Shown one piece after another: positions 3,336 through 23,439 of a DNA stretch of 35,549 bases. The notes under the pieces were generated by a model. The model saw nothing but the letters and a program-made list of their open reading frames with translations. It did no database searches and was not told where the DNA came from. Made by a program: the position numbers and the translations under genes. Source of the DNA: Deltaproteobacteria bacterium (GTDB taxonomy: Bacteria > Myxococcota > Myxococcia > Myxococcales > 40CM-4-68-19); assembly GCA_025358085.1 (NCBI GenBank), contig JANYKT010000183.1, positions 1 through 35,549 of the forward strand. Direction: 5' to 3'. Positions within the stretch are counted from its first letter, which is position 1, and each line of letters begins with the position of its first letter.

Positions 3336-5651
3336 TTAAATCGCAGTCTTCCGCAGGCGGAGCGCATTGGTGATCACCGAGACCGAACTGAAGCTCATCG
3401 CCGCACTCGCGATCATGGGACTCAGCAGGATGCCAAAGAATGGATAGAGCGCTCCGGCCGCCAGGGGCACGCCGAGCGCGTTGTAAACAAAGGCCCAGAA
3501 CAGGTTCTGGCGAATGTTTCGCAACGTGGCGCGGCTGAGTTTGCGGGCGCGAACGATACCGCGCAGATCGCCTTTGACCAGCGTGATGCCGGCGCTCTCC
3601 ATGGCGACATCGGTGCCAGTTCCCATCGCGATGCCCACGTGAGCCGCGGCCAGCGCGGGTGCGTCGTTGATTCCGTCTCCGGCCATTGCGACGATGCGGC
3701 CCGCGCGGCGAAGCCGGTCCACCGCTTCGCTCTTCTGCGCGGGCATTACTTCGGCTTCGAAATCGTCGATACCCAGCTTGCGTGCGACGGCCTCTGCCGT
3801 GGTCCGGCTGTCGCCCGTCATCATCACCACCCGCACGCCCTCTTCGCGCAACAGGCGCAACGCCTCCGCCGTCGAGGACTTGATGGGGTCGGCCACGCCG
3901 AGCAACCCGGCTAGCTTCCCGTCGATGGCGACGAACAGGATGGTCTGGCCCTCGGCCCTCAGTTCTTCGGCTCGCTGCTGCGCTCTTTCGATCAGGACGT
4001 GGCCGCTATCGAGGAATTTCGGGCTCCCCACCCAGACCTCATGGTCCTCCACGCGGCCCACTACGCCCCCGCCCGTTGCCGACTTGAACGCGGCGACAGG
4101 GGCCAGCGGCAGACCGCGCTTCTCCGCACCCTGCACGATGGCGTGACCCAGCGGGTGCTCGCTCGCGCGCTCGACGCTGGCTGCAAGCCTGAGCACGTCG
4201 TTCTCGTGGAATGGTTCGTAGGCCTCGGCCGAGACGAGGCGTGGCTTGCCCTCGGTGAGTGTCCCGGTCTTGTCGACGAGCAGGGTATCGACCTTTTCCA
4301 TCGTCTCAAGCGCCTCGGCATTGCGCACCAGCACTCCCGCGGCCGCGCCGCGCCCCGTGCCCACCATGATGCTCATCGGGGTCGCGAGGCCGAGCGCGCA
4401 CGGACAAGCAATGATCAGCACCGCCACCGCATTGACGATTGCATGCGCTAGGCGCGGCTCGGGTCCGACCGTGAACCAGACAATGAAGGTCGCGATAGCG
4501 ACCCCGATCACGACCGGAACGAACCAGCCGGCGACTTTGTCCGCGAGCCGCTGGATGGGCGCGCGAGTTCGCTGCGCCTGGCCGACCATCCGCACGATCT
4601 GCGCCAGAAGGGTAGCGTCGCCGACCCGCTCGGCGCGCATCAGGAAGCTGCCCACGCCATTGACAGTAGCGCCAGTGACCTTTGCTCCCGGCTCCTTGTC
4701 GACGGGGACCGGCTCGCCCGTCACCATCGATTCATCGACCGCGCTCCGTCCTTCGATGACGACGCCGTCGACCGGAACCTTCTCGCCGGGGCGAACGCGC
4801 AGCACATCGCCCGCGACGATCTGCGCCAGCGGAACATCGTGCTCCGTGCCATCCTGCTCGACCTTGCGCGCGAGTTTGGGAGACAGGCCCAAAAGCGCCT
4901 GCAGCGCCCCGCGGGTCCGCGCCCGCGCGCGCAGTTCCAGCACCTGTCCGAGCAGCACCAGCGAGACGATGAAGGCGGCCGGCTCGAAATACACTGGCGG
5001 GAGTCCGTGCTGCAGCAGCGCCGCGGGCAAGAGACCCGGAGCCACGGTGGCGACCACGCTGAATCCGTAGGCCACACCGGTCCCGAGCGCAATCAAGGTG
5101 AACATATTGAGACTGCGATTGACGACTGAAGCCCAGCCGCGCTGGAAGAAGGGCCAGCCCGCCCACAGCACCGTGGGAGTTGCGAGCGCAAATTCAATCC
5201 ATGGCAGCCAGCGTCCCAGCGCGGACTGCACCGGCATTCCCGGAAGCAAATCACTCATACCGAGAAGGAAGACCGGCACGGTGAAGAACAGGCTGATCCG
5301 GAACCTCCGGCTCATATCGATGAGTTCCGGGTTTGGTGCTTCCTCCGCGACCGAACGCGGCTCCAGCGCCATTCCGCAAACAGGGCAGGGCATCGGGTGA
5401 TCAGACTCGACCTCTGGATCCATTGGACAGACCCACGTCGTCCCCGCGGGCGCGGCCGGCGCGGGTGGCCTGGGCGCGAGCACCTGCGCGGGGGCGGACT
5501 CGAACTTTGACTTGCACTTCGCGCTGCAGAAGCCGTATTCGCGGCCTTGGTAGTGGGCCAACCCGCCTTTCGGATGGTCGAGGTCCACCTTCATTCCGCA
5601 GACGGGGTCGATACTTTGGCGCGTAGCTTCAGCGACGCTGTGCTGTTCCAT
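3336..5651 (-). CDS. copA: P1B-type copper-exporting ATPase
   Basis: 771 residues. It pumps Cu(I) from the cytoplasm using ATP and sits in the inner membrane. Domain order: an N-terminal YHS domain (about 13-55, DPVCGMKV start), a heavy-metal-binding domain with CPMDP and CPVCGM (about 73-98), then the ATPase core. Visible motifs are TGE at 311-313, the metal-site CPC at 416-418, phosphorylated Asp460 in [11 protein letters not shown] at 499-500 and GDGINDAP from 658. The C-terminal helix carries MSFSS, typical of Cu(I) pumps. There is no ferredoxin-like HMA domain; the YHS plus metal-binding pair replaces it, which is common in this subgroup. Start: ATG preceded by GGGAG. It is transcribed divergently from the two-component genes 83 bases away, so the regulator may control it. 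Symbol by family; CopB/silver pumps are the main alternative. Confidence 0.95.
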
Positions 5652-5734
5652 TGCGTTCTCCCGCTACCAGGGCCGGCCAGCCGGCTGCGCGGACACGGCC
5701 GCACTGGTGAGCGAATGATTGTATTGTCTCCTGC
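5652..5734. promoter_or_regulatory. divergent promoter region, copper ATPase / histidine kinase
   Basis: 83 bases separate two divergent genes and must carry at least the promoters for both unless transcription enters from outside. The ATPase side has a clear GGGAG ribosome site; the kinase side has none that is convincing. No clean -35/-10 or -24/-12 pair was found by eye. Confidence 0.45.
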
Positions 5735-7183
5735 GTGAAGCGGATACTTGAAGGCACCTCGCGCCGGATCTTCGCCGCTTTCGCGGTGCTGGTCCTGCTC
5801 TTCGCGGCGGCTTCAACCTTTGCCTTCGCGGGTATGAAGGAGGTTCACGAAGGGCTGCACAACGTCCGCGCGCAAGAGGAGCAGGTGCGCACGGTCCTCG
5901 AGCTGGCCAGCGCCGCGCGGGACGTCTACGCGCATGTGGCGCACACCATCATTCTCGGCAACAGTTCGCACCGTGCACTTTTTGCCGCCGCCCGGGACCA
6001 CGCCTTGCAGCTGGCCGCCCAGGTGCAGGAGGAGCAGCGGGACCCGGCCGCTTCAGCGCTCGCGGGCAGCATTGCCACTTCACTGGAAGACCTGGACGAA
6101 GGGTTTCGCGACCGGCTCCTTCCGGCAGTGGAATCGCATGACCACGCGCGCATCGAGGCGGAGCACGCGGTCGAGCAGGCGCTGGTGGCCGACGTGCAGC
6201 AGCGGGTCGACCAGATCGCGCGCCTCACCCTCGCGCGGATCGGCGACTTTGAGCAGCATGCGAGCGCCATTCAGCACGCCACGGTTCGATGGACGTTGCT
6301 TTGCCTGGCCGGTGCTCCATTCGCTGCCATCGCGATGGGTATCTATCTCGGCCGGTCCATCGCCAGGCCTGTTGCGAGGCTCAGCGCTGGCGCGGCACTC
6401 ATCGCTAAAGGCGATCTGAGCACCCGCATCGAGCTTGGCGGCAATGACGAGTTTGCGCAGCTCGCGAGGCAATTCAACGATATGACGACTTCGCTGCAGG
6501 CCGACCAGGCCATGCTGCTGCAGAGCGAGCGGCTGGCCGGCGTGGGCCGGCTGGCCGCGGGCGTGGCGCATGAAATCAATAACCCGTTGACCGTGATCCT
6601 CGGTTACGTGAGGCTCTTGCGGCGCGACGCGCGGGGAAGGCTCGCGACCGATCTGGCGGCTGTCGAAGAGGAAGCGATTCGTTGTCAGGAAATCGTCGAG
6701 GGCTTGCTCGATTTGTCCCGCCCCCTGGCCTCGCTCGGGGAGCCGGTTGAACTGCGAGAGGTGGTTGAAGCGGTCACCTCGCGGTTGCGCGATGCCGGCC
6801 GGCTTTCCGGCGTGGCCGTGCGGATCGATGGCAGAGGCACGGTCTCCGGCAATGCAGAGCGGCTGCGCCAGGTCGCGCTGAACCTGATCAAGAACGCAGC
6901 CGAGGCGGCCGGACCGCGGGGCGAAGTGTCCGTGGAGATCGATTCCCAAGGGGATGCCGTGGTCATGCGCATCATCGATTCGGGTCCGGGCCTGACGGAC
7001 GAGCAGCGGCGGCGGCTCTTCGAGCCCTTCTTCACGACCAAGGCCGCCGGGACTGGCCTGGGACTCGCCGTGTCGCGCGCCATCGCGCACGCGCATGGCG
7101 GCGAGATTGAAGCTGCCAATGCCTCGCCGCGCGGCGCCCTCTTTACCTTGCGGTTACCGGCGATGCCGGGGAGAGCGTCATGA
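5735..7183 (+). CDS. sensor histidine kinase
   Basis: 482 residues with a GTG start. Layout: membrane helix 1 (about 12-33), a periplasmic helical sensor region (34-184), helix 2 (about 185-206), a HAMP linker (about 206-258), then HisKA with phospho-acceptor His279 in HEINNPL. The HATPase domain has an N box (NLIKNAAEA, 383-391), G1 (DSGPGL, 415-420) and G2 (GTGLGL, 439-444). It should sense an envelope signal and phosphorylate the response regulator encoded next; the genes overlap by four bases (ATGA). Its position between the copper ATPase and cupredoxin genes suggests metal as the signal, but the periplasmic region has no obvious Cys/His/Met metal cluster, so that is inference. The start lacks a good Shine-Dalgarno site, but it keeps the full first helix. 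Confidence 0.93.
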   Translation: MKRILEGTSRRIFAAFAVLVLLFAAASTFAFAGMKEVHEGLHNVRAQEEQVRTVLELASAARDVYAHVAHTIILGNSSHRALFAAARDHALQLAAQVQEEQRDPAASALAGSIATSLEDLDEGFRDRLLPAVESHDHARIEAEHAVEQALVADVQQRVDQIARLTLARIGDFEQHASAIQHATVRWTLLCLAGAPFAAIAMGIYLGRSIARPVARLSAGAALIAKGDLSTRIELGGNDEFAQLARQFNDMTTSLQADQAMLLQSERLAGVGRLAAGVAHEINNPLTVILGYVRLLRRDARGRLATDLAAVEEEAIRCQEIVEGLLDLSRPLASLGEPVELREVVEAVTSRLRDAGRLSGVAVRIDGRGTVSGNAERLRQVALNLIKNAAEAAGPRGEVSVEIDSQGDAVVMRIIDSGPGLTDEQRRRLFEPFFTTKAAGTGLGLAVSRAIAHAHGGEIEAANASPRGALFTLRLPAMPGRAS

Positions 7184-8592
7184 AGAAGGCTCGTGTTCTG
7201 CTGGTCGATGATAAAGAGTCGATCCTGCAGCTGCTCGTGCGGATCCTGGGCGACGCGTACGAAATGACGCTCGCTTCCGACGGTACCAAGGCGCTCGCAT
7301 CCATCAATGCCGCTGAATTCGATGTCGTGCTCAGCGACATCCGCATGCCTGGCGCCGACGGGTTCGAGGTGCTCCGCGCGGTCAAGGCTCGCTCGCCTCA
7401 AACCGCGGTCGTGCTGATGACCGCCTTTGCCTCGGTGCCCAAGGCAGTCGAGGCGATGCAACTCGGGGCCTTTGACTACCTGCAGAAACCGTTCGAGCCC
7501 GATCAGGTGGCATTGGTCATCGCGCGCGCGGCCGACAGCCGGCGGTCGCTCGATCAAGCCTTGTCCGCGCCGGGCAGCGAGCCCGACCCCGCGACGGGAT
7601 ATCACCGGTTGATCGGGAAGAGCGCTCGGATGCAGGAGGTCTACGCGCTGCTGCGGAAAGCGGCGCAACTCGATATCACGGTGCTGCTCAGTGGGGAGAG
7701 CGGCACGGGAAAGGAGCTGGCGGCGCACGCCCTCCACTCCGCGAGCGCACGCAGTGCCGGCCGTTTCATCGCCGTGAATTGCGGCGCGCTTCCGCAAGAG
7801 CTGATCGAGAGTGAGCTGTTTGGCCATGCCAGGGGCGCGTTCACCGGCGCCTCGCTCGCCAAGGCCGGGCTGTTCGAGGAAGCCGCCCGAGGTACCATCT
7901 TCCTCGACGAAATCGGCGAGTTGCCGCTGGCCGCGCAGGTCAAACTTAACCGTGCGCTCCAGGAGCGCGAGATCCGGCGGGTCGGCGATAACAGCTCGGT
8001 CAAGATAGACGTGCGCGTCATTACCGCGACCCACCGCGACCTGAAAGCCGACGCGCAGGCGGGACGCTTTCGCGAGGATCTCTACTACCGGCTCAACGTC
8101 TTTCCGGTCCGCCTGCCGCCGCTGCGCGAACGGGTCGAGGATCTACCGCTGCTGGCCGCTCATTTTCTCGACAAGTACGCCCGCATCTACCAGCGTCAAT
8201 TCGAAGGGTTCGACGCCGAGGCGACCAGCGCGATGGCTGCCTATGGCTGGCCGGGCAACGTTCGAGAGCTCGAGAACGTGATCGAGCGCGCGGTCGCAGT
8301 GGCTTCTCCGCCACTCCTTCTCCGGGCGGACCTGACGGCCGAGCTCCGGCTGACGTCAGACGTGGCGCTGCCTGTGGAGTCCCTCGTCAAGATGCCGTAT
8401 CGCGAGGCGGTCGATATCGGGCGCGAGCGGGTCTCCCGGGAATACCTCAGCGCGCTCTTGCGCGAATTCAATGGCAATGTGACACGTGCCGCCGAGCGCG
8501 CGGGCATGGAGCGCGAGAGCCTGCATCGCTTGCTGCGGCGCTATTCGCTGCAATCGGAAGACTTCAAAAGCCCCGAACAAAAATCAGAATGA
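7180..8592 (+). CDS. NtrC-family sigma-54-dependent response regulator
   Basis: 470 residues. The receiver domain spans 1-120, with acidic residues Asp10/Asp11, phospho-acceptor Asp53 and Lys103. The AAA+ sigma-54 interaction domain spans about 142-375: Walker A GESGTGK (172-178), the sigma-54-contacting GAFTGA loop (219-224), Walker B at about 240-246 and an arginine-finger region near 298-304. A Fis-type helix-turn-helix lies at about 420-455. All key residues of an active enhancer-binding protein are present. It is translationally coupled to the kinase, so the two form a cognate pair. The likely targets are nearby sigma-54 promoters; a good one lies in front of the cupredoxin gene just downstream. 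The convergent cupredoxin gene ends 51 bases after this gene. Confidence 0.95.
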   Translation: MKKARVLLVDDKESILQLLVRILGDAYEMTLASDGTKALASINAAEFDVVLSDIRMPGADGFEVLRAVKARSPQTAVVLMTAFASVPKAVEAMQLGAFDYLQKPFEPDQVALVIARAADSRRSLDQALSAPGSEPDPATGYHRLIGKSARMQEVYALLRKAAQLDITVLLSGESGTGKELAAHALHSASARSAGRFIAVNCGALPQELIESELFGHARGAFTGASLAKAGLFEEAARGTIFLDEIGELPLAAQVKLNRALQEREIRRVGDNSSVKIDVRVITATHRDLKADAQAGRFREDLYYRLNVFPVRLPPLRERVEDLPLLAAHFLDKYARIYQRQFEGFDAEATSAMAAYGWPGNVRELENVIERAVAVASPPLLLRADLTAELRLTSDVALPVESLVKMPYREAVDIGRERVSREYLSALLREFNGNVTRAAERAGMERESLHRLLRRYSLQSEDFKSPEQKSE

Positions 8593-8643
8593 GCGACTCC
8601 TGCATGAATCGTTTCAAGCGCCGCAATCGGCGAGCCTCCCTGC

Positions 8644-8952
8644 TTACTCGACGAGCAGAACTCCGGAGGCCATATCCATGCCGCAGGCGTAACGGATCTC
8701 GCCCGTCTTCACCGGCGTGAAGTGGACCTCGACAGGCTTGTTCAAAGGCAGGTCTTTGCTCACGCTCGCGTCCTTGATGACGAGCTTCTTGGCACAGGTC
8801 TGGTCGGTTGTGCGGGTGAAGATGAGCTTGAGCGGCTCACCCTTCTTGACGCGCACCTTGGCTGGTTCGAAGCCGTTCGAGTCGACCTTCAGGTTGACGG
8901 TCCGGGGTACCGCGGTAGCGAGCAACAGGAAGGCGGTGAGTGCGAAGTTCAT
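8644..8952 (-). CDS. small periplasmic cupredoxin-like protein
   Basis: 102 residues. A short signal peptide (about 1-15) is followed by a single cupredoxin-like domain of the EfeO/Cupredoxin_1 type. The C-terminal CGMDMASG segment supplies a Cys and Mets, and an earlier Cys lies in QTCAKK. Such domains bind copper or other metals in the periplasm and often lie next to P1B ATPases. Start: ATG preceded by AAAGGAG. A well-matched sigma-54 type promoter (9004-9019) lies about 40 bases upstream of the predicted leader. A role as copper carrier or sink within the copper region is inference from context. Confidence 0.85.
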   Translation of the reverse strand: MNFALTAFLLLATAVPRTVNLKVDSNGFEPAKVRVKKGEPLKLIFTRTTDQTCAKKLVIKDASVSKDLPLNKPVEVHFTPVKTGEIRYACGMDMASGVLLVE

Positions 8953-9003
8953 GGGGTCTCCTTTGCGCTTGAGATGTGGCAAACGCGGTGTGGATTCACT
9001 CCT

Positions 9004-9019
9004 TGCATGGACGGTGCCT
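9004..9019 (-). promoter_or_regulatory. sigma-54 type -24/-12 promoter of the cupredoxin gene
   Basis: Read on the minus strand the site is AGGCAC, five bases, then ATGCA. The consensus is TGGCAC-N5-TTGCA. The invariant GG and GC are ten bases apart as required. It lies between the zinc-ribbon gene stop and the cupredoxin ATG, giving a leader of roughly 40 bases. A sigma-54 activator gene sits just downstream of the cupredoxin gene, which supports a functional link. Confidence 0.65.
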
Positions 9020-9022
9020 ATC

Positions 9023-9943
9023 TCATCGCGCCGCATCCGAGCCCGACGCGAGACACCTCGTCGACGACACTTTCCGGCCGGCGCAAAACGGACAGCCGCG
9101 CTTGCGGCCCACGCGATCGCGCGGAGCCGCTTGCCAGCGGTGGTCGCTGCCTGCGGGGCATTTCCACCAATGCTTGCGGGTCGAGGCCGCGGAGGTCGTG
9201 TGCGGAGTGGCAGTGCCATTCCTCCGGGCATCCCATTCGGTGACCAGGGCAGGCGCCATCGTGGCCAAGGAATTGGTGACCGACAGAGCCTGATTCGCAC
9301 AAGCCGGGCAGCCGTTGCCACTGACCGTTCTGCTATTTGCTTGCGCTCGCCATACATGGTCGGGTCCTTTCGGACATAGCCACCAGATGCCCAGAGTCGA
9401 GCCAGCAGGCACATCGTCTGGAGTCAGCGACGCGTTCAAAGTGGGGTGCCACTGCAAAGTCAGATCCGGATAGAGCGTCCGAAGTGAATTGGTCACCGAC
9501 GCGAGTCGCCCCGCGCAGAAGGGACAACCGGTCTTGAGGCAGGTCCTGCTGTAGACGAGGGCGCTCCAATCGTGGTCCGGCCCGGCGGCGCAGACCCAAT
9601 GGCCGCGTACTCCGGACCCGTAGCTGATGTGCCGTGGATCACGGCCTAGATTCTTGTGAGGATGCCATTCGGCCATCAGCCTGGGGTATCCCCCCAGCCA
9701 TCGTTTGGACGGAAACGGAATGAGCTGCCGGGCAAGGTCGCGCGCCTCGCGATTGCCGAGAGGGCCAGCAAGGTCCGTCCACCGATACCAGCGGTCCCCC
9801 CCGCGGCGAAAAGAGTGCAGGGTGCTGACGAGTGCCTCGAACTCGCCATCCGCGAGGCCCAGCATTGCCTTCAGGCGCCTGGCGGCCACGGAGCCTCGCA
9901 GCGGGAAAGCAGTGGTCTGCCGGCTTGAAGTTTCCGGTGCCAT
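9023..9943 (-). CDS. tandem zinc-ribbon repeat protein (DUF4379-like)
   Basis: 306 residues. After an N-terminal region (1-84, no domain recognised), three repeats of about 60-75 residues follow (about 85-143, 155-214, 231-287). Each has a tryptophan-rich stretch, one Cys with a downstream His, and a CP-x-C knuckle: C118/H124/C140/C143, C190/H196/C212/C215 and C262/H268/C284/C287. This matches the probable zinc-ribbon family DUF4379, of unknown function and sometimes linked to nuclease-like proteins. Residues after 290 start a fourth repeat (SSTRCLAS against SVTNSLAT) that ends at a stop, so the 3' end looks cut short. It is unrelated to copper and sits between copper genes, suggesting an insertion. 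The start is uncertain: the ATG at 9943 lacks a clear ribosome site, and Met27 is an alternative. Confidence 0.7.
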   Translation of the reverse strand: MAPETSSRQTTAFPLRGSVAARRLKAMLGLADGEFEALVSTLHSFRRGGDRWYRWTDLAGPLGNREARDLARQLIPFPSKRWLGGYPRLMAEWHPHKNLGRDPRHISYGSGVRGHWVCAAGPDHDWSALVYSRTCLKTGCPFCAGRLASVTNSLRTLYPDLTLQWHPTLNASLTPDDVPAGSTLGIWWLCPKGPDHVWRAQANSRTVSGNGCPACANQALSVTNSLATMAPALVTEWDARRNGTATPHTTSAASTRKHWWKCPAGSDHRWQAAPRDRVGRKRGCPFCAGRKVSSTRCLASGSDAAR

Positions 9944-10006
9944 ATCGTGCTGTGGCTGTAGCAAGCGGAAAGCCAGACACGTTCGGCCAGCAGCCTTGCC
10001 CGGGCG

Positions 10007-10022
10007 GGACCAGGTTTTGCAG
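10007..10022 (+). promoter_or_regulatory. possible sigma-54 promoter of the copper operon
   Basis: GGGACC, five bases, then TTGCA. The -12 element is exact and GG/GC spacing is correct, but the -24 element matches poorly beyond GG. It lies 26 bases upstream of the cytochrome ATG, so the leader would be short. In GC-rich DNA such a match can be chance. Confidence 0.3.
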
Positions 10023-10048
10023 CGCGCCAAACACAGGAGGTCATGGTG

Positions 10049-10675
10049 ATGAAAAGGCTGGAGCGAGCGCTGGCAATCCTCGGTGGTGTTTTGCTGCTTG
10101 CGCTCCTGGGTGCGATAGCTGCGGGCGTCGGCCTCGTCCGGCGGGGCCTGAGCGCCCGCGCGCAGCCGACCCGCATGGAAGAAATGATGGCGTTGCAGAT
10201 GCGGTCCATGGCAACCCCGGCGCGGGTTCGGGATCTCAAGAACCCCGTTCAGCCTGATGCCGCGCTCCTCGCGGGCGGACGCCATCACTTCGCCGACCAC
10301 TGCGCTTCCTGCCACGCCAATGACGGAAGCGGCGCAACCGAAATGGGGAAGAACTTGTACCCGAAGGCTCCCGATCTCCGTGCCCCGCGCACGCAGGAGC
10401 TGACCGACGGCGAAATTTTCGCAATCATCCAGAATGGGATCAGGCTCTCGGGGATGCCGGCCTGGGGCGAGGAACACGGGGATGATCGCGAAAGCTGGGC
10501 TTTGGTCTCATTCATCCGGCATCTGCCGAAGCTCAGCCCTGAAGAGCAACGGGAGATGGAGGATCTCAACCCCAGAGGCCCCGGCGAGCGCGGCGAAGAC
10601 CAGGACGAGCAGGAATTCTTGCAGGGCGGCGACGAGAAAGCAGCCGATCCGGCGATGCCCGGCATGAAGCACTGA
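10049..10675 (+). CDS. membrane-anchored cytochrome c
   Basis: 208 residues. A single N-terminal membrane helix (about 8-30) anchors a periplasmic domain. Haem is attached at CASCH (85-89), and Met136 in SGMPAW is the probable sixth ligand. The C-terminal tail (about 155-208) is acidic and low in complexity. Class I c-type cytochromes like this carry electrons in the envelope; here it could accept electrons linked to copper or multicopper oxidase chemistry. An exact AGGAGG at 10035-10040 is only two bases from an in-frame ATG at 10043 but eight bases from the ATG at 10049, so the later start is preferred. First gene of a co-directional group to 14303. Confidence 0.88.
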   Translation: MKRLERALAILGGVLLLALLGAIAAGVGLVRRGLSARAQPTRMEEMMALQMRSMATPARVRDLKNPVQPDAALLAGGRHHFADHCASCHANDGSGATEMGKNLYPKAPDLRAPRTQELTDGEIFAIIQNGIRLSGMPAWGEEHGDDRESWALVSFIRHLPKLSPEEQREMEDLNPRGPGERGEDQDEQEFLQGGDEKAADPAMPGMKH

Positions 10676-10849
10676 GGCGAGCGGGGCAACGCCGGGACGT
10701 TTTCGACAGGCTCGCGGGCCGTGGCCGCATCGGTCACAGTGTCGCCCAATGAGTTCCGCTTTTTGCGCGGCGCCGGAGTGGCGGCGAATGGCCTGCTTTC
10801 TGCTTTGCAATTCGTTGCCGCGACACCCACCGTCGCGCAGAAAGTCACC
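10676..10849 (+). promoter_or_regulatory. gap with weak sigma-54-like site at 10789-10804
   Basis: 174 bases between the cytochrome gene and the next start. An open frame crosses it but has no ribosome site and an unnatural composition. TGGCCT, five bases, CTGCT at 10789-10804 has the GG-N10-GC spacing of a sigma-54 promoter, 46 bases from the next ATG, but the match is only partial. Confidence 0.25.
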
Positions 10850-11215
10850 ATGACGACACGAAGCTGGTTCAGGAACGGAATGCTGGCTGCTGGAGTTCTC
10901 GCTTTCGCGCCGCTTGCGCTCGCGCACGGCGGAATGGAACACGTGATGGGCACGGTGGTGTCCGCCGACGCGAAGTCCATTGTCGTGAAGACCCCGAAAG
11001 GCGTGGAGACCACCATTCAAGTGGACGAAAAGACCAAGGTGGAACGAAGCGGAGCCGAGGCGAGGGTGACGGACCTTGCGGCTGGTGAGCGCGTCGTGGT
11101 CCATGCGCACAAAGGCGAAGCAGGGCTGACCGCGATGATGATCAAGGCCGGCGCGACGAAAGCCGGAGGCGCGGTCAAGGCCACCGGTACACCTGCCCAC
11201 CACCACTCGGACTGA
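10850..11215 (+). CDS. small exported beta-barrel-like protein
   Basis: 121 residues. A signal peptide of about 25 residues ends in ALA before HGG. The mature protein is a short beta-rich domain (MGTVVSAD...IVVKTPKG...TKVERSG...GERVVVHA) of the kind grouped with DUF5666-like OB folds, and ends in a His-rich HHH tail. No catalytic motif is seen. His residues at both ends of the mature protein and its place directly upstream of the multicopper oxidase gene suggest a copper-related periplasmic role, by inference only. The ATG at 10850 was chosen because it starts the signal peptide; the ribosome site is weak. Confidence 0.75.
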   Translation: MTTRSWFRNGMLAAGVLAFAPLALAHGGMEHVMGTVVSADAKSIVVKTPKGVETTIQVDEKTKVERSGAEARVTDLAAGERVVVHAHKGEAGLTAMMIKAGATKAGGAVKATGTPAHHHSD

Positions 11216-11230
11216 CTCGGAGAACTCCCC

Positions 11231-12634
11231 TTGGCGAACGATTCAAAAGTAGTTTCCCGCCGGGGGCTTCTCGGCCGCGGCACGTTGCTCGGCGGCGCGG
11301 CGCTGCTGGCCAGCCGCGAAGCCGGCGCGGCTGGCGTCCCGGGGGCGAAGGGCGCACGACCCGATTCGGCGGCGGCCACGGGCAGCGATCCTGCGTCGCA
11401 GGCGGCGCAGGCGCCGGGCCGCGCGAACCTGGATTACCGCCCGGTCATCGTGCCGAACGGCGCGAAGGCCCCGTGGAAGATCGTTGATGGCGTCAAGGTG
11501 TTCCACCTTGTCGCCGAGGAAGTCGAGCACGAGTTTGCGCCCGGCCTGAAGGCCAAATGCTGGGGATACAACGGCCGTGTGCATGGACCGTTGATCGAGG
11601 CCGTCGAACACGAGCGGGTTCGCATCTACGTGACCAATCGCCTCAAGGCCTCCACCACGGTGCATTGGCACGGCGTTTTGCTGCCCAATGGCATGGACGG
11701 CGTGGGTGGCCTGAATCAAAAAGCGATTCAACCGGGCGAGACTTTCAAATACGAGTTCACCACCCGGCAGCACGGCACCATGATGTACCACTCGCATCAT
11801 GACGAGATGACGCAGATCGGGATGGGCATGACGGGCCTTTTCGTCATTCATCCTCGCAGGCCCCGGGTCCATTTCGACCGCGACTTCGCCATCATGCTGC
11901 ACGAGTGGCGCATCGACGTGGGCTCGGGCCGGCCCAATCCCAATGAAATGACCGAATTCAACCTGCTGACCATGAATGCGAAGGCGTTCCCGGGCACCGC
12001 GCCGCTGGTGGCCAGGAAAGGGGACCGGGTTCGAATCCGCATCGGCAACCTGAGCCCGATGGACCACCACCCCATTCACCTGCATGGATATCAATTCAAG
12101 ATCACCGAGACCGACGGCGGGCAGATCGCGGAGAGCGCGCAGCAGCCGGGGACGACGGTGCTGGTGCCCGTGGGAACCACTCGAACCATTGAGTTCGTGG
12201 CGAACGAGCCGGGCGATTGGGCCATGCATTGCCATATGACTCACCATGTGATGAATCAAATGGGGCACAAATTTCCCAACCTCGTCGGAGTTGATGCAGG
12301 AGACCTCGACAAGCGCGTGCGGAAGCTGCTGCCTGGCTATATGACCATGGGGCAGAGCGGCATGGCGGAGATGGGCGACATGGGCATGCCCGTCCCGGAG
12401 AACAGCATTCCCATGCTGGGCGGCGCTGGCAAGCACGACTACATCACCATGGGCGGAATGTTCACCGTTCTGAAAGTGCGCGATCACCTCAAGTCTTATG
12501 CCGACCCGGGATTCTACGAGAATCCGCCTGGCACGCTGGCCAGCGCCGCAAGCGGGCATGACCTTCGGCGCGATGGAGTCGATCCGGCGAACCCAATGCG
12601 GATCGAGACCGATTCGGAAGACGCCAGCACCTGA
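11231..12634 (+). CDS. Tat-exported multicopper oxidase (copper resistance type)
   Basis: 467 residues with a TTG start behind a GGAGA site. A Tat signal (SRRGLLGRGTLLGG, 9-22) leads to the periplasm. All four copper-binding segments are present: HWHG (145-148), HSHHDE (187-192), HPIHLHG (280-286) and HCHMTHHVMNQM (333-344). The last contains the type 1 Cys335 and the axial Met. Residues 371-387 hold many Met (MTMGQSGMAEMGDMGMP), the Met-rich insert typical of cuprous oxidases such as CueO and CopA of plasmid copper systems. The family oxidises toxic Cu(I) to Cu(II) with oxygen. The gene starts 15 bases after the previous one and is followed by a Met-rich lipoprotein and a TolC-type channel. 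Confidence 0.95.
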   Translation: MANDSKVVSRRGLLGRGTLLGGAALLASREAGAAGVPGAKGARPDSAAATGSDPASQAAQAPGRANLDYRPVIVPNGAKAPWKIVDGVKVFHLVAEEVEHEFAPGLKAKCWGYNGRVHGPLIEAVEHERVRIYVTNRLKASTTVHWHGVLLPNGMDGVGGLNQKAIQPGETFKYEFTTRQHGTMMYHSHHDEMTQIGMGMTGLFVIHPRRPRVHFDRDFAIMLHEWRIDVGSGRPNPNEMTEFNLLTMNAKAFPGTAPLVARKGDRVRIRIGNLSPMDHHPIHLHGYQFKITETDGGQIAESAQQPGTTVLVPVGTTRTIEFVANEPGDWAMHCHMTHHVMNQMGHKFPNLVGVDAGDLDKRVRKLLPGYMTMGQSGMAEMGDMGMPVPENSIPMLGGAGKHDYITMGGMFTVLKVRDHLKSYADPGFYENPPGTLASAASGHDLRRDGVDPANPMRIETDSEDAST

Positions 12635-14480: not shown

Positions 14481-14617
14481 CATAGACAAGCCGCCGGAAT
14501 CGCTTGCAATGGCGCCGCCGGAAAAGATTGGAGCCAGAAGCCCTACAGGTCGCACTCGATTGCGGGATAGCCATCCGTCAAGCAGATGAGCCCGGTCCCC
14601 CTGTCCAAGGAGAGAAA

Positions 14618-17347
14618 ATGCGTCCCCCGCTTCTCAAACTCGTCCTTCCGCTGCTCGTCTTCGCCTGCACGAGTCGACCCGTCGCCCCGCTTTCCACGGC
14701 GACCCAATCCCTCAGCACCACGATCACCAACGGCGGATTCGAGTCCGGCAACCTCACCGGCTGGACCGCGACGGGCTACAGCTCGGCCATCACCAGCCCG
14801 CACAGCGGCTCGTACGCGGCCTCGGTTGGCGATACGCAGCCCTCCACCGACAGCTCGGTTTCGCAGAGCTTCACCGCGCCCGCGGGCGGCGCCACGCTGT
14901 CGTTCTACTACCAGGTCCACTGCCTCGACACCGTCACCTACGACTGGGCCAGCGCAACCCTCGCGGACACCACGGCCGGCACCACCGCGACCTTGCTCTC
15001 CAACACCTGCACCAACTCTGGCGCCTGGGTGAAGGTCACCTCGGGCGCGCTGACCGCGGGCCACAACTACACAATCAAGCTCGCGAACCACGACGACAAC
15101 TACGCGGGCGACGTGACCTACACGCTCTACGACGACGTCACTCTCACCGGCGGCACGCCTCCTCCCGTCAACGATTTCTCGCTCGCGCTCAGCCCCTCGA
15201 GCGCGTCGGTCGCGGCGGGCTCGTCGGTCGCCTATTCCGTCACCACCGCCGTCACCTCCGGCAGCGCGCAGAGCGTTTCGCTTTCAGTGAGCGGGCTCCC
15301 TGCGGGCGTCACTGGCTCGTTCAGTCCCGCGTCGGTCACCGCCGGCGGCAGCTCGACCCTGACGCTCGCCGCCGCAAGCTCCGCGGCTGCCGCCAGCAGC
15401 ACCTTCACCGTGACCGGCGCAGCCACCTCGGGCTCGCACGGCGCCACCGCCAGCGTCACGGTCACCGTGACGGCGCCGCCTCCGGGCGGAATCACCAACG
15501 GCGGCTTCGAGACCAGCAACCTGAATGGCTGGACCAGCAGCGGTATCACCGCCGTCAGCACCACCTCGCACTCGGGGACCTACGCGGCCGAGATCGGCAG
15601 CTCGGCTCCGTCCACCGACAGCTCCATCTCGCAGACCTTCTCCACGCCCGCGGCGGGCGGGACGCTGAGCTTCTGGTTCCGCGTCGTCTGTCCCGACACC
15701 GTCCAATACGACTGGGCCACGGCCACGCTGACCAACAACGCGACGAGCGTCGCCACGGTGATCCTCTCGGACACCTGCTCGAATAGCGGCTCCTGGGCGC
15801 AGGTCACCTCGGGTGCGCTCGCGGGCAGCACGAGCTACACGCTCAAACTCGCCAACCACGACGACAACTACTCGGGCGACCCGACTTACACGCTCTATGA
15901 CGACGTTGCGCTGAGCGGCAGCACGCCTCCGCCCGTCAACGACTTCTCGATTTCGGTGACGCCCGCGAGCGCGACCGTCGCGCGGGGCAGCAGCGCCTCC
16001 TTCACCGTCAGCACCGCGGTGACGAGCGGCAGCGCGCAGTCCGTCTCGCTGTCGGTCGCCGGGCTGCCGTCGGGCGTGACCGGTTCATTCAATCCGGCCT
16101 CGGTCACCGCGGGCCAGAGTGCGACGCTGACGGTCAGCGCCAGTTCCACCGCCTCGGGCACCTCGACCTTCACCGTGACCGGCTCCGCCACCTCGGGCAC
16201 GCACACCGCCACTGGCACGGTCACCGTCTCGGTGCCGACGGCAAACGACTTCTCCGTCTCGGTCAGCCCCGCGAGCCAGAGCGTGGCGCAGGGAGCGCAG
16301 GTCAGCTACTCGGTCGCCACCGCGGTGGTCAGCGGCAGCGCGCAGACCGTCTCGCTGTCGGCGAGCGGCTTCCCCTCTGGCGTCACGGGGTCGTTCAGCT
16401 CGGCCTCCGTCTCGGCGGGCCAGAGCTCGACGCTGACGGTGAGCGCCAGCGCTTCGGCCACCGGCAGCGCCACCTTCACCGTCACCGGCGCGGCCACCTC
16501 GGGTAGCCACGCCGCTACGGCCACGGTCTCGGTCAGCGCCGCCGGCACCGGCATCGGCCCCACCGGCGGTTCGGTCGATCACCTCTACTTCGCGGTGGTC
16601 GGCGACACGCGGCCCGGCACGCTGGACCAGACGTCCAGCTACCCGACGGCGATCATCACCAAGATCTACCAGGAGATGCAGGCGCTCAATCCGCGGCCGC
16701 AGTTCGTGGTCGGCACCGGCGATTATATGTTCGCCAGCACCACCGGCACCGAAGCGCAGGCGCAGATGAACCTGTATCTCGGGGCGCAGCAAAACTACAC
16801 GGGGACGACCTTTGCCTCGATGGGAAACCACGAGTGCGATGGCTACACCGCCGACAACTGCACGCCGGGCCAGACGACGAACTACAACGTCTTCATGGCC
16901 GGCCTGGTGACGCCGCTCGGCTACAACACGCCCTACTACAGCATCCCCATCCGCGCGACCGACAACAGCTGGACCGCGAAGCTCGTGATCGTTGCCTGCA
17001 ACCAGTGGGACGCCACGCAGCGGACCTGGCTCACCAACCAGCTCGCTTCCTCGACGACGTACACCATCCTCGCGCGGCACGAGCCGGCCGCATCCAGCAC
17101 CGGGCCCTGCGTCACCGACGCCGAGAATCTCATGACCCAGTACCCGTACAACCTTAACCTGGTCGGCCACACGCACACTTTCGGGCTGACGGCAAAGCAG
17201 GTCATTGTCGGGACCGGCGGCGCGCCCATCACCACCTCGGGTGTGCCCTATGGCTTCGCCACGGTGGAGAAGATCTCCACCGGCTGGCAGGTCAAGCAGT
17301 ACGACTACTCGACGGGGCTGCCAATCAACACCTACGTCGTCCCGTAG
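14618..17347 (+). CDS. repeat-rich lipoprotein with C-terminal metallophosphoesterase
   Basis: 909 residues. A lipoprotein signal ends in VFAC (Cys17). Two carbohydrate-binding-like beta modules starting NGGFE (34-178, 292-435) alternate with three Ig-like modules starting NDFS (185-286, 441-540, 543-642). The C-terminal calcineurin-like phosphoesterase (655-909) keeps the dimetal ligands Asp663, Asp702, Asn737-His738, His821, His851 and His853. The family hydrolyses phosphomono- or diesters. Surface display on repeated modules suggests it acts on extracellular or bound substrates. The ATG at 14618 is preceded by AAGGAG; a longer frame upstream lacks a ribosome site. The modules are duplicated at DNA level too, so internal recombination is likely. 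A good terminator follows. Confidence 0.9.
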   Translation: MRPPLLKLVLPLLVFACTSRPVAPLSTATQSLSTTITNGGFESGNLTGWTATGYSSAITSPHSGSYAASVGDTQPSTDSSVSQSFTAPAGGATLSFYYQVHCLDTVTYDWASATLADTTAGTTATLLSNTCTNSGAWVKVTSGALTAGHNYTIKLANHDDNYAGDVTYTLYDDVTLTGGTPPPVNDFSLALSPSSASVAAGSSVAYSVTTAVTSGSAQSVSLSVSGLPAGVTGSFSPASVTAGGSSTLTLAAASSAAAASSTFTVTGAATSGSHGATASVTVTVTAPPPGGITNGGFETSNLNGWTSSGITAVSTTSHSGTYAAEIGSSAPSTDSSISQTFSTPAAGGTLSFWFRVVCPDTVQYDWATATLTNNATSVATVILSDTCSNSGSWAQVTSGALAGSTSYTLKLANHDDNYSGDPTYTLYDDVALSGSTPPPVNDFSISVTPASATVARGSSASFTVSTAVTSGSAQSVSLSVAGLPSGVTGSFNPASVTAGQSATLTVSASSTASGTSTFTVTGSATSGTHTATGTVTVSVPTANDFSVSVSPASQSVAQGAQVSYSVATAVVSGSAQTVSLSASGFPSGVTGSFSSASVSAGQSSTLTVSASASATGSATFTVTGAATSGSHAATATVSVSAAGTGIGPTGGSVDHLYFAVVGDTRPGTLDQTSSYPTAIITKIYQEMQALNPRPQFVVGTGDYMFASTTGTEAQAQMNLYLGAQQNYTGTTFASMGNHECDGYTADNCTPGQTTNYNVFMAGLVTPLGYNTPYYSIPIRATDNSWTAKLVIVACNQWDATQRTWLTNQLASSTTYTILARHEPAASSTGPCVTDAENLMTQYPYNLNLVGHTHTFGLTAKQVIVGTGGAPITTSGVPYGFATVEKISTGWQVKQYDYSTGLPINTYVVP
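15170..16543 (+). repeat. intragenic module repeats (three Ig-like copies)
   Basis: Three copies of a roughly 300-bp unit (15170-15475, 15938-16237, 16244-16543) encode near-identical Ig-like modules inside the phosphoesterase gene. A second unit, the NGGFE module, is duplicated at 14717-15151 and 15491-15922. The composite (NGGFE plus Ig) is therefore present twice, followed by one extra Ig copy. Confidence 0.85.
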
Positions 17348-17365: not shown

Positions 17366-17403
17366 AAAGCGGGGGTCGCGGCGCTTGCCGCGGCCCCCCT
17401 TTC
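17366..17403 (+). terminator. rho-independent terminator of the phosphoesterase gene
   Basis: GGGGGTCGCGGC (17371-17382) pairs with GCCGCGGCCCCC (17387-17398) around a GCTT loop, followed by CTTT. It begins within 30 bases of the stop codon and separates the lipoprotein gene from the membrane-protein operon. One G-T wobble pair. Confidence 0.85.
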
Positions 17404-17425: not shown

Positions 17426-17899
17426 ATGCCCCACGTCTTCCTCGACGGATACGCGAAGCCGCTGCTGGTCCTGCACGCGCTCGCGGCCTTCGCCCTGTTC
17501 GGCGCCTGCACGCACCAGGCGGTCATCGGGGTCGGGCTCTTGCGCGGGCGCTTGCATCTGGGACGCCAGGCGCGGATCTACGCGCAGCTGATCGGCGCGC
17601 TGTTCGTCGTTGCGTTCGGCGTCGGCTTATTGATGTATCCGCACTATCGCTATCATGTCCGCGGGCTCTTCCTCGACCGCTACGAGCCCTGGGCGTCGAA
17701 CCTCTTCGATATGAAAGAAAACCTGCTCGCGCTCGCGCTGCCGTTCGCGCTCTGCCTCTTCGCGATCGGCCGCCGCTTCGACCCGCGCGAAGAGCCGGTG
17801 CTGATCCCGTTCTTTGCTTTTGCCTCGCTTGCGCTCTGGGCGCTGGTCACTTTCGGCGTGATCTCGGGCCTGGTGATCACCAGCGTGCGGGGCGTCTGA
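17426..17899 (+). CDS. four-helix membrane protein of the radical SAM operon
   Basis: 157 residues, no family recognised. Four hydrophobic helices are seen (about 13-38, 52-71, 97-115, 126-150). His17 and His30 lie in or near helix 1, and a loop with HYRYHVRG and a basic/acidic stretch (residues 73-99) joins helices 2 and 3. The buried His residues could bind haem or metal, but nothing proves this. First gene of a tightly packed five-gene run that ends with a radical SAM/SPASM enzyme; the next gene starts 3 bases after its stop. The ATG at 17426 was preferred over an in-frame TTG at 17405. It starts just after a strong terminator, so the operon promoter must be very close or inside the first codons. 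Confidence 0.75.
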   Translation: MPHVFLDGYAKPLLVLHALAAFALFGACTHQAVIGVGLLRGRLHLGRQARIYAQLIGALFVVAFGVGLLMYPHYRYHVRGLFLDRYEPWASNLFDMKENLLALALPFALCLFAIGRRFDPREEPVLIPFFAFASLALWALVTFGVISGLVITSVRGV

Positions 17900-17902
17900 A
17901 GA

Positions 17903-18289
17903 ATGCAGAAATCGCTCGCCCGCGCCGTCCCACCGCTCTGCGGCGCTGCCGCCTATCTCGCGGCGTGGTTCCTCTCCACGGCGCTGCCGACGCGGCTGCT
18001 CTGGCATTTGCCGGTGGAGCATCGCTTCACCTTCGAGGTCCACCCGCTCACGTTGGGGGCCGACTTCTACGGCCGGTTGGTGCTCTGCCTCGGCGTGGGC
18101 GCCCTGGCCGCCACCGCTGCGGCGGTTTCCATCAAGCTCCGGAAGTTCGAGCTGCGCGCAAGCTGGCTCCGCGCGCTGCTCATCTGGACCTTCGGCCTCT
18201 TGCTCTTCACCTCGGGCATGTACCTCAACATCCTCGCCTCGCGCCGCCCCATCGCCGCGCCGCTGCCGCCCGGTTATGTGGCCCGCTAG
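17903..18289 (+). CDS. three-helix membrane protein of the radical SAM operon
   Basis: 128 residues. Hydrophobic helices at about 8-29, 57-78 and 88-109; a loop with HLPVEHRFTFEVHP (35-48) holds three His and lies between helices 1 and 2. No known family. It starts 3 bases after the previous stop, and its last 14 bases overlap the next gene, so the three membrane genes are translationally linked. Confidence 0.72.
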   Translation: MQKSLARAVPPLCGAAAYLAAWFLSTALPTRLLWHLPVEHRFTFEVHPLTLGADFYGRLVLCLGVGALAATAAAVSIKLRKFELRASWLRALLIWTFGLLLFTSGMYLNILASRRPIAAPLPPGYVAR

Positions 18290-19085
18290 CCTGCTGGCGG
18301 TACTGGTGGTTTCAGCCACCGCGGCCCCCGTAGCCGCGGCGGCTCCCGGGTTCGACGACATCGTCTCCGCCGTCACCGCGCAGAACCACGACGACTCGTG
18401 CGCGGCGATGCAGGGCTGGCTCAGCGCGCACGCGAGCGATCCGCGGGCGGCACAGGGTCTGGTGTGGATGGCGCGGCTGCGGACCACCGACCGCCACTAC
18501 GCCCAGGCACGCGCGCTCCTTTTGCAGGCCCTGCGCGAACCGCCGCAGGCCGAGTGGCAGCTGCACGCAAAGAAAGCGCTGGGCGATCTCGATCTCGAGA
18601 GCCACCGATTCGCGCCCGCCATTGCGGCCTTCGACGAGCTTGCCAAGAGCCCGCTTCCGCTCTGGCGCTACGTCGGCAGCAACGCCGCGGAGAACGCGCG
18701 CGGCGAGCAGTCGCGCTTCCGCATCATGCTGGGGCTCCTGGCCGCGCTGCTCCTGCTCTGGGTCTTTCGCGTGCGCGCGCTGCGCCCGCTCTTCCCGCCC
18801 CCGATGGAGCTTGTCTACGCGCTGCCGGTGCTGCTTTTGGTGGTGCTGGCCGCCGGGTCGCAGGAAGAGCCCGAGGCGCACGCGCTGGTCACGTTGGGGG
18901 CCGGCTCGGCGGTGTTGCTCTGGCTGAACGGCGCCTGGGCTCGCGCGCAAAAGCCGCGGGGCCGCGCGCGGTGGGCATACCTGCTCGTCGGCGCGCTGCA
19001 GGCGGGCGCCATGCTCTACTGCGCCATGATCGGCAATGGACTCTGGGAGAAGTTGAAGGACACCATCGCGATTGGAGCCGAGTGA
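18276..19085 (+). CDS. TPR-like and four-helix membrane protein of the radical SAM operon
   Basis: 269 residues. An N-terminal signal peptide or anchor (1-23) is followed by an alpha-helical, TPR-like region (about 27-135; Ala-rich paired helices with WMARLR, YAQARALLLQAL and FAPAIAAFDEL). Four membrane helices follow (about 149-168, 177-194, 203-221, 231-251). TPR regions bind partner proteins, so this could be the docking part of a membrane complex made with the two preceding proteins. Family not recognised. It overlaps the previous gene by 14 bases and touches the next start (TGATG). Confidence 0.75.
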   Translation: MWPASLLAVLVVSATAAPVAAAAPGFDDIVSAVTAQNHDDSCAAMQGWLSAHASDPRAAQGLVWMARLRTTDRHYAQARALLLQALREPPQAEWQLHAKKALGDLDLESHRFAPAIAAFDELAKSPLPLWRYVGSNAAENARGEQSRFRIMLGLLAALLLLWVFRVRALRPLFPPPMELVYALPVLLLVVLAAGSQEEPEAHALVTLGAGSAVLLWLNGAWARAQKPRGRARWAYLLVGALQAGAMLYCAMIGNGLWEKLKDTIAIGAE

Positions 19086-19300
19086 TGCACAAGGATCTGG
19101 ACGGCAGGCCGCGCGTGCTCGGCATCCGCTTCGGCGTCAATCCGAACTCGAGCTCGCTGGGCGTCGATGTGACTTACCTGCTCTTCGGCGGAACGCTCGC
19201 GGTCATCGCCTCGATGGCCATCGGCGCGTGGCTGCGGACCCTGCGCAGCTCGGCGCAGGAGTACGGCGCACCGCCGCCGCCGCCCGAAAGCCAGCCTTGA
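19085..19300 (+). CDS. 71-residue single-helix protein upstream of radical SAM enzyme
   Basis: 71 residues. The N-terminal part (1-29) is polar and holds FGVNPNSSSLG; one membrane helix follows (about 30-50); the tail is polar and ends in a Pro run with QEYGAPPPPPE. It starts in a TGATG overlap with the previous stop, and its own stop overlaps the TTG start of the radical SAM gene (TTGA). A short protein translationally coupled to a SPASM maturase is the usual layout of a modified peptide and its enzyme, so it is a candidate substrate, although it has no Cys and no Gly-Gly leader site. It could instead be a structural subunit of the membrane complex. Confidence 0.75.
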   Translation: MHKDLDGRPRVLGIRFGVNPNSSSLGVDVTYLLFGGTLAVIASMAIGAWLRTLRSSAQEYGAPPPPPESQP

Positions 19301-20478
19301 AAGTTCGCGCCGAATGGTTTGGCGGCATCGTCTCGCTCGAGCGGCCGCGGGCGCTGGTGTCGATCAACCGCGCCATGATGCGGCTGCTCGGATTCGCGGA
19401 CAGCGCTCGCTGGCGCGGCCCCGAGACTGACCAGCTCTCGGCCCCCACCGAGGTCCACGTCGTCCTCTCCAAGCGTTGCAGCGCGGGCTGCACCAGCTGC
19501 TACGTCGACGCCACTCCGCAAGGCGCGGCGCTGTCGCTGCAGGATGCGAAGGCCGCGCTCGACCGGCTCGCCGCGCACGGCGTCTTCCATGTCGCGCTCG
19601 GTGGCGGCGAGGCCATGGACCTCGACTATCTCTTCGAGGTGGCCGACCACGCGCGCTCGGTAGGCATCCTCCCCAACCTGACCACCGCGGGGCTCAACAT
19701 GACGCCCGCGCTGGCCCGGCGCTGCCGTGTCTTCGGCCAGATCAATGTCAGCGTCGACGGCGTCGGCGAGCGCTATCGCGAGGCCCGCGGCTTCGACGGC
19801 TTCGCGCTGGCGGAGAAGGCGCTCCGGCTCTTGCGCAAGGAGAAGCGCGAGGTCGGCATCAATACGGTGGTCTCGCGCAGCTCGTACCCGCACCTGGGCG
19901 AGATCGTGGCGCTGGCGAAGCGGCTGCGGCTCAACGAAGTGGAGCTCTTGCGCTTCAAGCCCTCGGGCCGCGGGGCCGCGAATTTCGAGAGCGAGGACCT
20001 CACGCCCGAGCAGGCGCGCGGCATCTTCCCCAAGGCGCAATGGCTCACCGTGCGGCACCGCATGCGGGTCAAGCTGGACTGCTCGTTCGCGCCCATGGTC
20101 TTCTGGCATCGCCCGCGCCGCTGGGTGGCGAAGTTCTTCGGGGTGGTCGGCTGCGAGGGAGGCAACCTGCTTGCCTCGGTACTACCCGACGGGTCCATCA
20201 CCGGCTGCTCGTTCGGCGGCCCGGACGAAGGCAGCATCCTTGATCCGGCGGCCACGCGGCGCGCGTTCGAGAGCGGCTTCTCGGCGTTCCGCAGCTATGT
20301 CGCGCGCGCTCCCGAGCCCTGCAATACCTGCGACTACCTGGCCCTGTGCAAGGGCGGCTGCCGGGTGGTGGCGAAGGCCAAGGGAGACTGGTGGCAGCCC
20401 GACCCGGGCTGTCCCCGCGTAATGGAATGGCGCGCGACGCAGCCGGTGCGCCGCTCGCCGTTCAAAATCCTCTCTTAG
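19297..20478 (+). CDS. radical SAM/SPASM domain protein
   Basis: 393 residues from a TTG start. The radical SAM 4Fe-4S motif is C61-x3-C65-x2-C68, and GGGE at 102-105 is the SAM-binding segment of the barrel. The C-terminal SPASM region has many Cys: C286, C304, C342, C345, C351, C355 and C372. The CNTC...CKGGC pattern is typical of proteins that carry auxiliary iron-sulfur clusters. Such enzymes modify peptides or proteins, for example by cross-linking side chains or in cofactor synthesis (PqqE, sactionine and mycofactocin maturases). The four upstream genes are linked by overlaps or a 3-base gap; the immediate neighbour encodes a 71-residue protein. No radical SAM substrate class is recognised, and there is no RiPP recognition element I can identify at the N-terminus. 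A TTG start in a 4-base overlap fits translational coupling. Confidence 0.9.
   Translation: MKVRAEWFGGIVSLERPRALVSINRAMMRLLGFADSARWRGPETDQLSAPTEVHVVLSKRCSAGCTSCYVDATPQGAALSLQDAKAALDRLAAHGVFHVALGGGEAMDLDYLFEVADHARSVGILPNLTTAGLNMTPALARRCRVFGQINVSVDGVGERYREARGFDGFALAEKALRLLRKEKREVGINTVVSRSSYPHLGEIVALAKRLRLNEVELLRFKPSGRGAANFESEDLTPEQARGIFPKAQWLTVRHRMRVKLDCSFAPMVFWHRPRRWVAKFFGVVGCEGGNLLASVLPDGSITGCSFGGPDEGSILDPAATRRAFESGFSAFRSYVARAPEPCNTCDYLALCKGGCRVVAKAKGDWWQPDPGCPRVMEWRATQPVRRSPFKILS

Positions 20479-20950: not shown

Positions 20951-23439
<2,489 letters not shown>

Follow-up and report, generated by a model that had tools for sequence, protein, structure and literature searches.

A radical SAM/SPASM enzyme and its small membrane partner, a putative substrate, in a conserved membrane gene set of Myxococcota

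Radical S-adenosylmethionine (SAM) enzymes with a SPASM domain make peptide-derived cofactors and natural products. In the peptide maturases SkfB, SuiB, CteB, PqqE and MftC a radical SAM barrel is combined with SPASM cysteines, and a small protein is encoded just upstream. Here we describe five genes, named A to E, at positions 17426-20478 of a 35,549-nucleotide stretch (contig JANYKT010000183.1 of a Deltaproteobacteria bacterium, hereafter the window). Enzyme E has the barrel and the cysteines in common with these maturases, which are also its best structural neighbours, and the small protein D is likewise encoded just upstream of it. Unlike the partners in those systems, however, D has a hydrophobic segment and is near-invariant, PqqD or the RRE domain is not found by sequence for E, and the membrane proteins A, B and C have no counterpart. 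A SPASM enzyme with a small peptide partner is of a known kind, whereas the family of E, the membrane partner D and A-C had no match in the family libraries and literature searched. The genes are:

17426-17899, + strand: gene A, 157 aa, membrane protein of four helices
17903-18289, + strand: gene B, 128 aa, small polytopic membrane protein
18276-19085, + strand: gene C, 269 aa, running from a signal-like segment through a TPR-like soluble part to three C-terminal transmembrane segments
19085-19300, + strand: gene D, 71 aa, with GVNPNSSSLG at residues 17-26 ahead of a single hydrophobic segment
19297-20478, + strand: gene E, 393 aa, enzyme of the radical SAM/SPASM type, with cysteine sets for two auxiliary clusters

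The coordinates bear out the original prediction, made from the window alone, of five co-directional genes joined by overlaps or a 3-base gap: the gap separates A from B, while B and C overlap by 14 bases, C and D by 1 base (TGATG) and D and E by 4 bases (TTGA). E starts at a TTG codon that overlaps the stop codon of D, and the alignment places the start of its relatives at the same site.

These genes are a genuine system in Myxococcota and not chance neighbours, because each of the five families is conserved in other genomes together with its linkage. Among 195 genomes of the window's own phylum, searched with E-value cut-offs of <1e-40 for protein E and <1e-9 for protein D, E is found in 20, and D in 19 of these and in no other genome; in the twentieth (G011), E is cut by the contig end. 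A second group comprised 379 genomes from the phylum of G195, whose locus L041 carries the label Myxococcota. E is present in 83 of them, including all 29 with a strong D match (p 8.5e-22, uncorrected for shared ancestry), and the weaker D matches are mostly a diverged cysteine form directly upstream of E. E and D usually occur one to one per genome. Furthermore, whole-genome searches of 30 E-positive and 28 E-negative genomes recovered full-length C (E-value <=1e-22) in 28 of the former and one of the latter (Fisher p 8e-13), and A (E-value <=1e-6) in 22 and one, respectively (Fisher p 2e-8); of the eight E-positive genomes that lack A, all but one fall in class f11/f18. The idea that the genes form one system is thus upheld by genome-level co-occurrence and linkage of A, C, D and E, and the check for co-occurrence of all five in other genomes shows that the parts do occur together, even if scattered. 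It should be noted that locus counts are not independent, as some locus sets hold the same genome twice (e.g. L034 and G004).

The five-gene order is one of several. In the gene maps, A-B-C-D-E is found in the window and in G012, D-E-A-B on contig C62 and in G003-G005, G007, G010 and G015, C-D-E in G019, G024, G028 and class f11/f18, and C-D-E-B-like-A in G538 and G569. Whole-genome searches usually locate the parts missing from a cluster elsewhere in the same genome, and this holds for gene C, which is seemingly absent from the layout-I clusters and lies elsewhere in most of those genomes. The source genome carries a second cluster, D'-E'-A'-B', on C62 (L004), in which E' is 62% identical to E, while contig C112 holds another full-length copy of C. 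When away from C-D-E, A still adjoins B (L251, L252, L254, L257, L258); the set behaves as two modules, A-B and C-D-E, which are often separated. One such A-B pair (L258:6810-7690, G018) lies in a genome where E, D and full-length C were not found. Several genomes with the D-E-A-B layout have further uncharacterised genes after B, one coding for a lipoprotein-like, Cys-rich protein of ~140 aa and another for a protein of 160 aa (L004:8469-9390 and its relatives L048-L052). In three class-f11 genomes, genes read by eye as NADH dehydrogenase- or antiporter-like membrane subunits adjoin D-E (L102:2499-7989, L104:5448-10823, L105:2426-8835).

Within this set, D is supported as the closest partner of E, up to natural fusion. 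In most genomes gene D immediately precedes E, and in at least ten genomes the two make one polypeptide; ten distinct relatives have them as a single open reading frame uninterrupted by a stop, which is strong evidence that they act together. D was predicted to be a 71-residue single-helix protein with an NPNSSS stretch; hydropathy indeed gives one transmembrane segment, and the alignment of the family shows the stretch beside it to be near-invariant. Its consensus over 56 distinct proteins is G-x-[NASG]-[PA]-N-[SC]-S-[SA]-x-G, in which the first Gly, the Asn and the sixth-position Ser are present in 56/56 and the last Gly in 55/56. At position 5, 39 proteins have Ser, always within N-P-N-S-S-S, and 17 have Cys, within [AGS]-[PA]-N-C-S-[SA]. 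Outside the motif D drifts, and the hydrophobic helix itself is variable. In the tree of E, the Cys-form and fused lineages make up one nested clade (support 99/92). Searches with A-D of Pfam, NCBIfam and PHROGs gave no family above cut-off, and a PDB sequence search with D returned nothing credible.

The fifth gene had been read as a radical SAM enzyme with a Cys-rich SPASM region, and both domain matches and invariant cysteines agree. E scores 45.1 bits against Pfam Radical_SAM (cut-off 29.5; E-value 1.6e-11), matches SPASM with an E-value of 1.4e-8 and reaches 35 bits against TIGR04085 (cut-off 27); by hydropathy it has no transmembrane segment. The window protein carries CX3CX2C, CX12GX4C and CX2CX5CX3C plus a last Cys, all in invariant columns of the alignment, and in 61 distinct full-length E proteins CX3CX2C and CX2CX5CX3C are each kept in 61/61 and CX9-16GX4C in 60/61. 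E stays below all NCBIfam equivalog cut-offs, the best being MftC with 95.2 of 265 bits, followed here by GeoRSP (86.8 of 400) and PqqE (68.4 of 381). A check for a clade of known, unrelated function did not refute the prediction. A plasmid search gave distant SPASM proteins only. In about a dozen genomes a kinase/pyrophosphorylase gene of the pyruvate phosphate dikinase-regulatory type (PF03618) directly follows E (e.g. L175:9311-10120; E loci L115-L128 and L132).

An AlphaFold model of the natural D-E fusion L137 (pLDDT 90.5, pTM 0.90) places E structurally among the peptide maturases SkfB, SuiB and PqqE, as its closest relatives by predicted fold. The nearest folds are SkfB (Z 27.7, 312 residues aligned, 3.2 A) and SuiB (Z 27.4, 362 aligned, 3.3 A), followed by CteB (Z 25.3), PqqE (Z 25.0) and the anaerobic sulfatase-maturating enzyme (anSME; Z 24.5). 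In the alignments with SuiB and SkfB, the N-terminal strands of the model match these enzymes starting close to the first residues of each. In the D part, residues 3-8 are modelled as a beta strand (block pLDDT 80) and residues 22-43 as a helix.

What, then, would E do to D? We propose that A-E form a conserved membrane system of the Myxococcota in which the small subunit D is matured by E, a reading whose chances we put at about even. Maturation of D by E best explains the findings because the polar motif is near-invariant, co-occurrence is strict, the genes are adjacent and at times fused, and the SPASM enzyme is intact. In this scheme D would carry at its N-terminus a short basic segment (R-x-[LIV]-x-[VI]), which E may recognise. 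Reduced, SAM-bound E would then abstract a hydrogen within G-x-x-P-N-[Ser/Cys]-S-S-x-G, presumably leaving an oxidised or cross-linked residue, the likeliest site being the invariant Asn/Ser or the Ser/Cys position. Matured D would be held in the membrane by its hydrophobic segment and act with C and the A-B pair, in an envelope complex that their co-occurrence suggests. One clade has D as the N-terminal domain of E, which would tie the enzyme permanently to its substrate or to a subunit. E is in any case tied across much of the Myxococcota to a membrane miniprotein and three further membrane proteins; if D is modified, the modified residue would sit in a standing membrane protein and not in a released peptide, and the fusions would be natural unions of enzyme and substrate.

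Several observations weigh against maturation of D. Unlike most precursors of ribosomally synthesised and post-translationally modified peptides (RiPPs), D has a hydrophobic segment. In the fusions, cytoplasmic E is C-terminal to that segment, and a single membrane span would therefore put the motif outside, away from the active site. Standalone D carries positive charge on both the N-side and the C-side of the segment, and these flanking charges leave its topology unsettled. The motif region of the L137 model is of low confidence (about 51-55). Finally, homology of the E N-terminus to PqqD or RRE is unsupported by sequence, with an HHalign probability of 0.5% and no match to PqqD (PF05402) in genome G000.

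The main rival is that D is not modified at all and serves as a membrane anchor or docking subunit for E, which would act on C, or on a cofactor or lipid held by A-B. The D-E fusions are compatible with either role of D, substrate or anchor, and can be counted for this rival together with the presence of one D per E in most genomes, the basic flanks of the hydrophobic segment, and a scaffold of E that is also used on small molecules (PqqE/MftC/AhbC-type scores). However, an anchor has no need for nine near-invariant polar or small residues before a helix that is itself variable, and in some genomes D lies far from E, beside a TRAP (tripartite ATP-independent periplasmic) transporter cluster. 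Anchoring by an unmodified D seems possible but less likely than maturation. In four genomes (G274, G462, G521, G550) D is genuinely linked to TRAP genes, but this is not general: D-type genes directly follow TatT (PF16811) and TatP (DctP) of a TPR-associated TRAP transporter, with E elsewhere (L185:7424-9716, L183:5871-8200, L181:8022-10484, L226:7066-9398), and a fused DctQM gene is close by in at least three of the four.

Returning to maturation of D by E, one speculative extension is that D becomes a self-maturing membrane cofactor protein, in which E, in some lineages part of the same polypeptide as D, would turn the fixed Asn-Ser/Cys-Ser stretch into a built-in peptide cofactor used by an A-B-C membrane module; we put this idea forward only tentatively, and think it unlikely. 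A classical RiPP pathway, in which the core of D is cut out and exported to act as a natural product or cofactor, appears more doubtful still. The SPASM gene lies directly 3' of a small peptide gene, and the mycofactocin and pyrroloquinoline quinone (PQQ) maturases are among the closest enzymes, as such a pathway would have it. Yet the gene maps show no consistently linked protease, PqqD or dedicated exporter, the motif is near-invariant where a diversified one might be looked for, and it stands N-terminal of a hydrophobic segment in a protein that one clade has fused to E.

Could E instead resemble the sulfatase maturases, converting the Ser/Cys of the D motif to a formylglycine that serves as catalytic aldehyde? 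The Ser/Cys interchange at a single position of the putative target motif (39/17) recalls that of sulfatases, and anSME is among the fold matches. On the other hand, D lacks the sulfatase motif [CS]-x-[PA]-x-R, and the switch from Ser to Cys falls within one nested clade. Moreover, anSME has Asp, its catalytic base, right after the GX4C cysteine (C-D-F), and 61/61 E proteins have Ser there (C-S-F). We hold formylglycine formation to be very improbable. That the genes are chance neighbours with no joint function, to which the distance between A-B and C-D-E in many genomes might point, is contradicted by the genome-level co-occurrence and conserved linkage of A, C, D and E, and is scarcely credible.

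The three membrane proteins had been predicted to be polytopic, in agreement with hydropathy: A has four transmembrane segments, B two clear ones and a likely weaker N-terminal one, and C a signal-like segment and three more. For the predicted TPR-like part of C, a distant relative matches TPR_19 (E-value 2e-4), whereas the window protein itself stays sub-threshold (TPR_21, E-value 0.069; YbgF, E-value 0.0084). This part is probably periplasmic, and the C-terminal membrane part of C is conserved together with it. In 24 relatives of A, His17, Tyr74, Arg75, Phe94 and Lys97 are invariant and His30 and Glu98 nearly so. That A binds heme is a guess. The model of A is a confident bundle of four helices (pLDDT 93.3), with no significant Foldseek match and, in VIA, only generic helical bundles. 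Because A keeps membrane His residues and D adjoins a TRAP cluster in four genomes, our guess is that the proposed complex of D with A, B and C might be an electron- or substrate-handling membrane module.

Two known families come near to A. COX15/CtaA, a heme A synthase half, is likewise a four-helix membrane bundle with conserved His and gives weak Pfam scores in four A relatives (best E-value 3.3e-5), but the best score, 23.5 bits in a relative, falls short of the cut-off of 29.9, and Foldseek gave the model of A no significant match. Likewise, window A scores weakly as DctQ of TRAP transporters (19.2 bits, cut-off 28.3); unlike the TatT-TatP-TatQM transporters, the five-gene set of the window lacks DctP and DctM, and this candidate was rejected. 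A small conserved protein is also paired with a SPASM-type protein in haloarchaea, where the Htur_1727 rSAM-partnered candidate RiPP accompanies the TIGR04347 pseudo-SAM/SPASM protein. E, in contrast, is ~26% identical, has an intact CX3CX2C and reaches 81 of the 525 bits that the TIGR04347 model demands, and D has no family match. The literature on the motif and on SPASM-membrane peptide systems yielded nothing relevant. The original prediction knew of no named system with this layout, and none was matched in the family libraries and literature searched.

Upstream of gene A the prediction had placed a strong terminator:

17371-17398, + strand: hairpin of 12 G+C-rich pairs, possible terminator of the preceding gene

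This is only partly right: the hairpin is real, folding far better than shuffled sequences (z -3.65), but its T tract is weak (CTTTCATT). The large protein that ends just before gene A (14504-17347) has repeated stretches that resemble beta domains and, at its C-terminus, a calcineurin-like phosphoesterase domain (PF00149, E-value 6.8e-6), and phosphoesterase-like proteins are also near the A-E set in L043 and L041. Downstream, 21061-23439 encodes a catalase-peroxidase (PF00141) with an apparent N-terminal lipoprotein signal, so it is perhaps exported. Further away, 3336-12634 is a metal-handling neighbourhood, with a heavy-metal-type P-type ATPase and a cytochrome c-like protein, both read from sequence, as well as a cupredoxin-like protein (PF13473) and a multicopper oxidase (PF07732).

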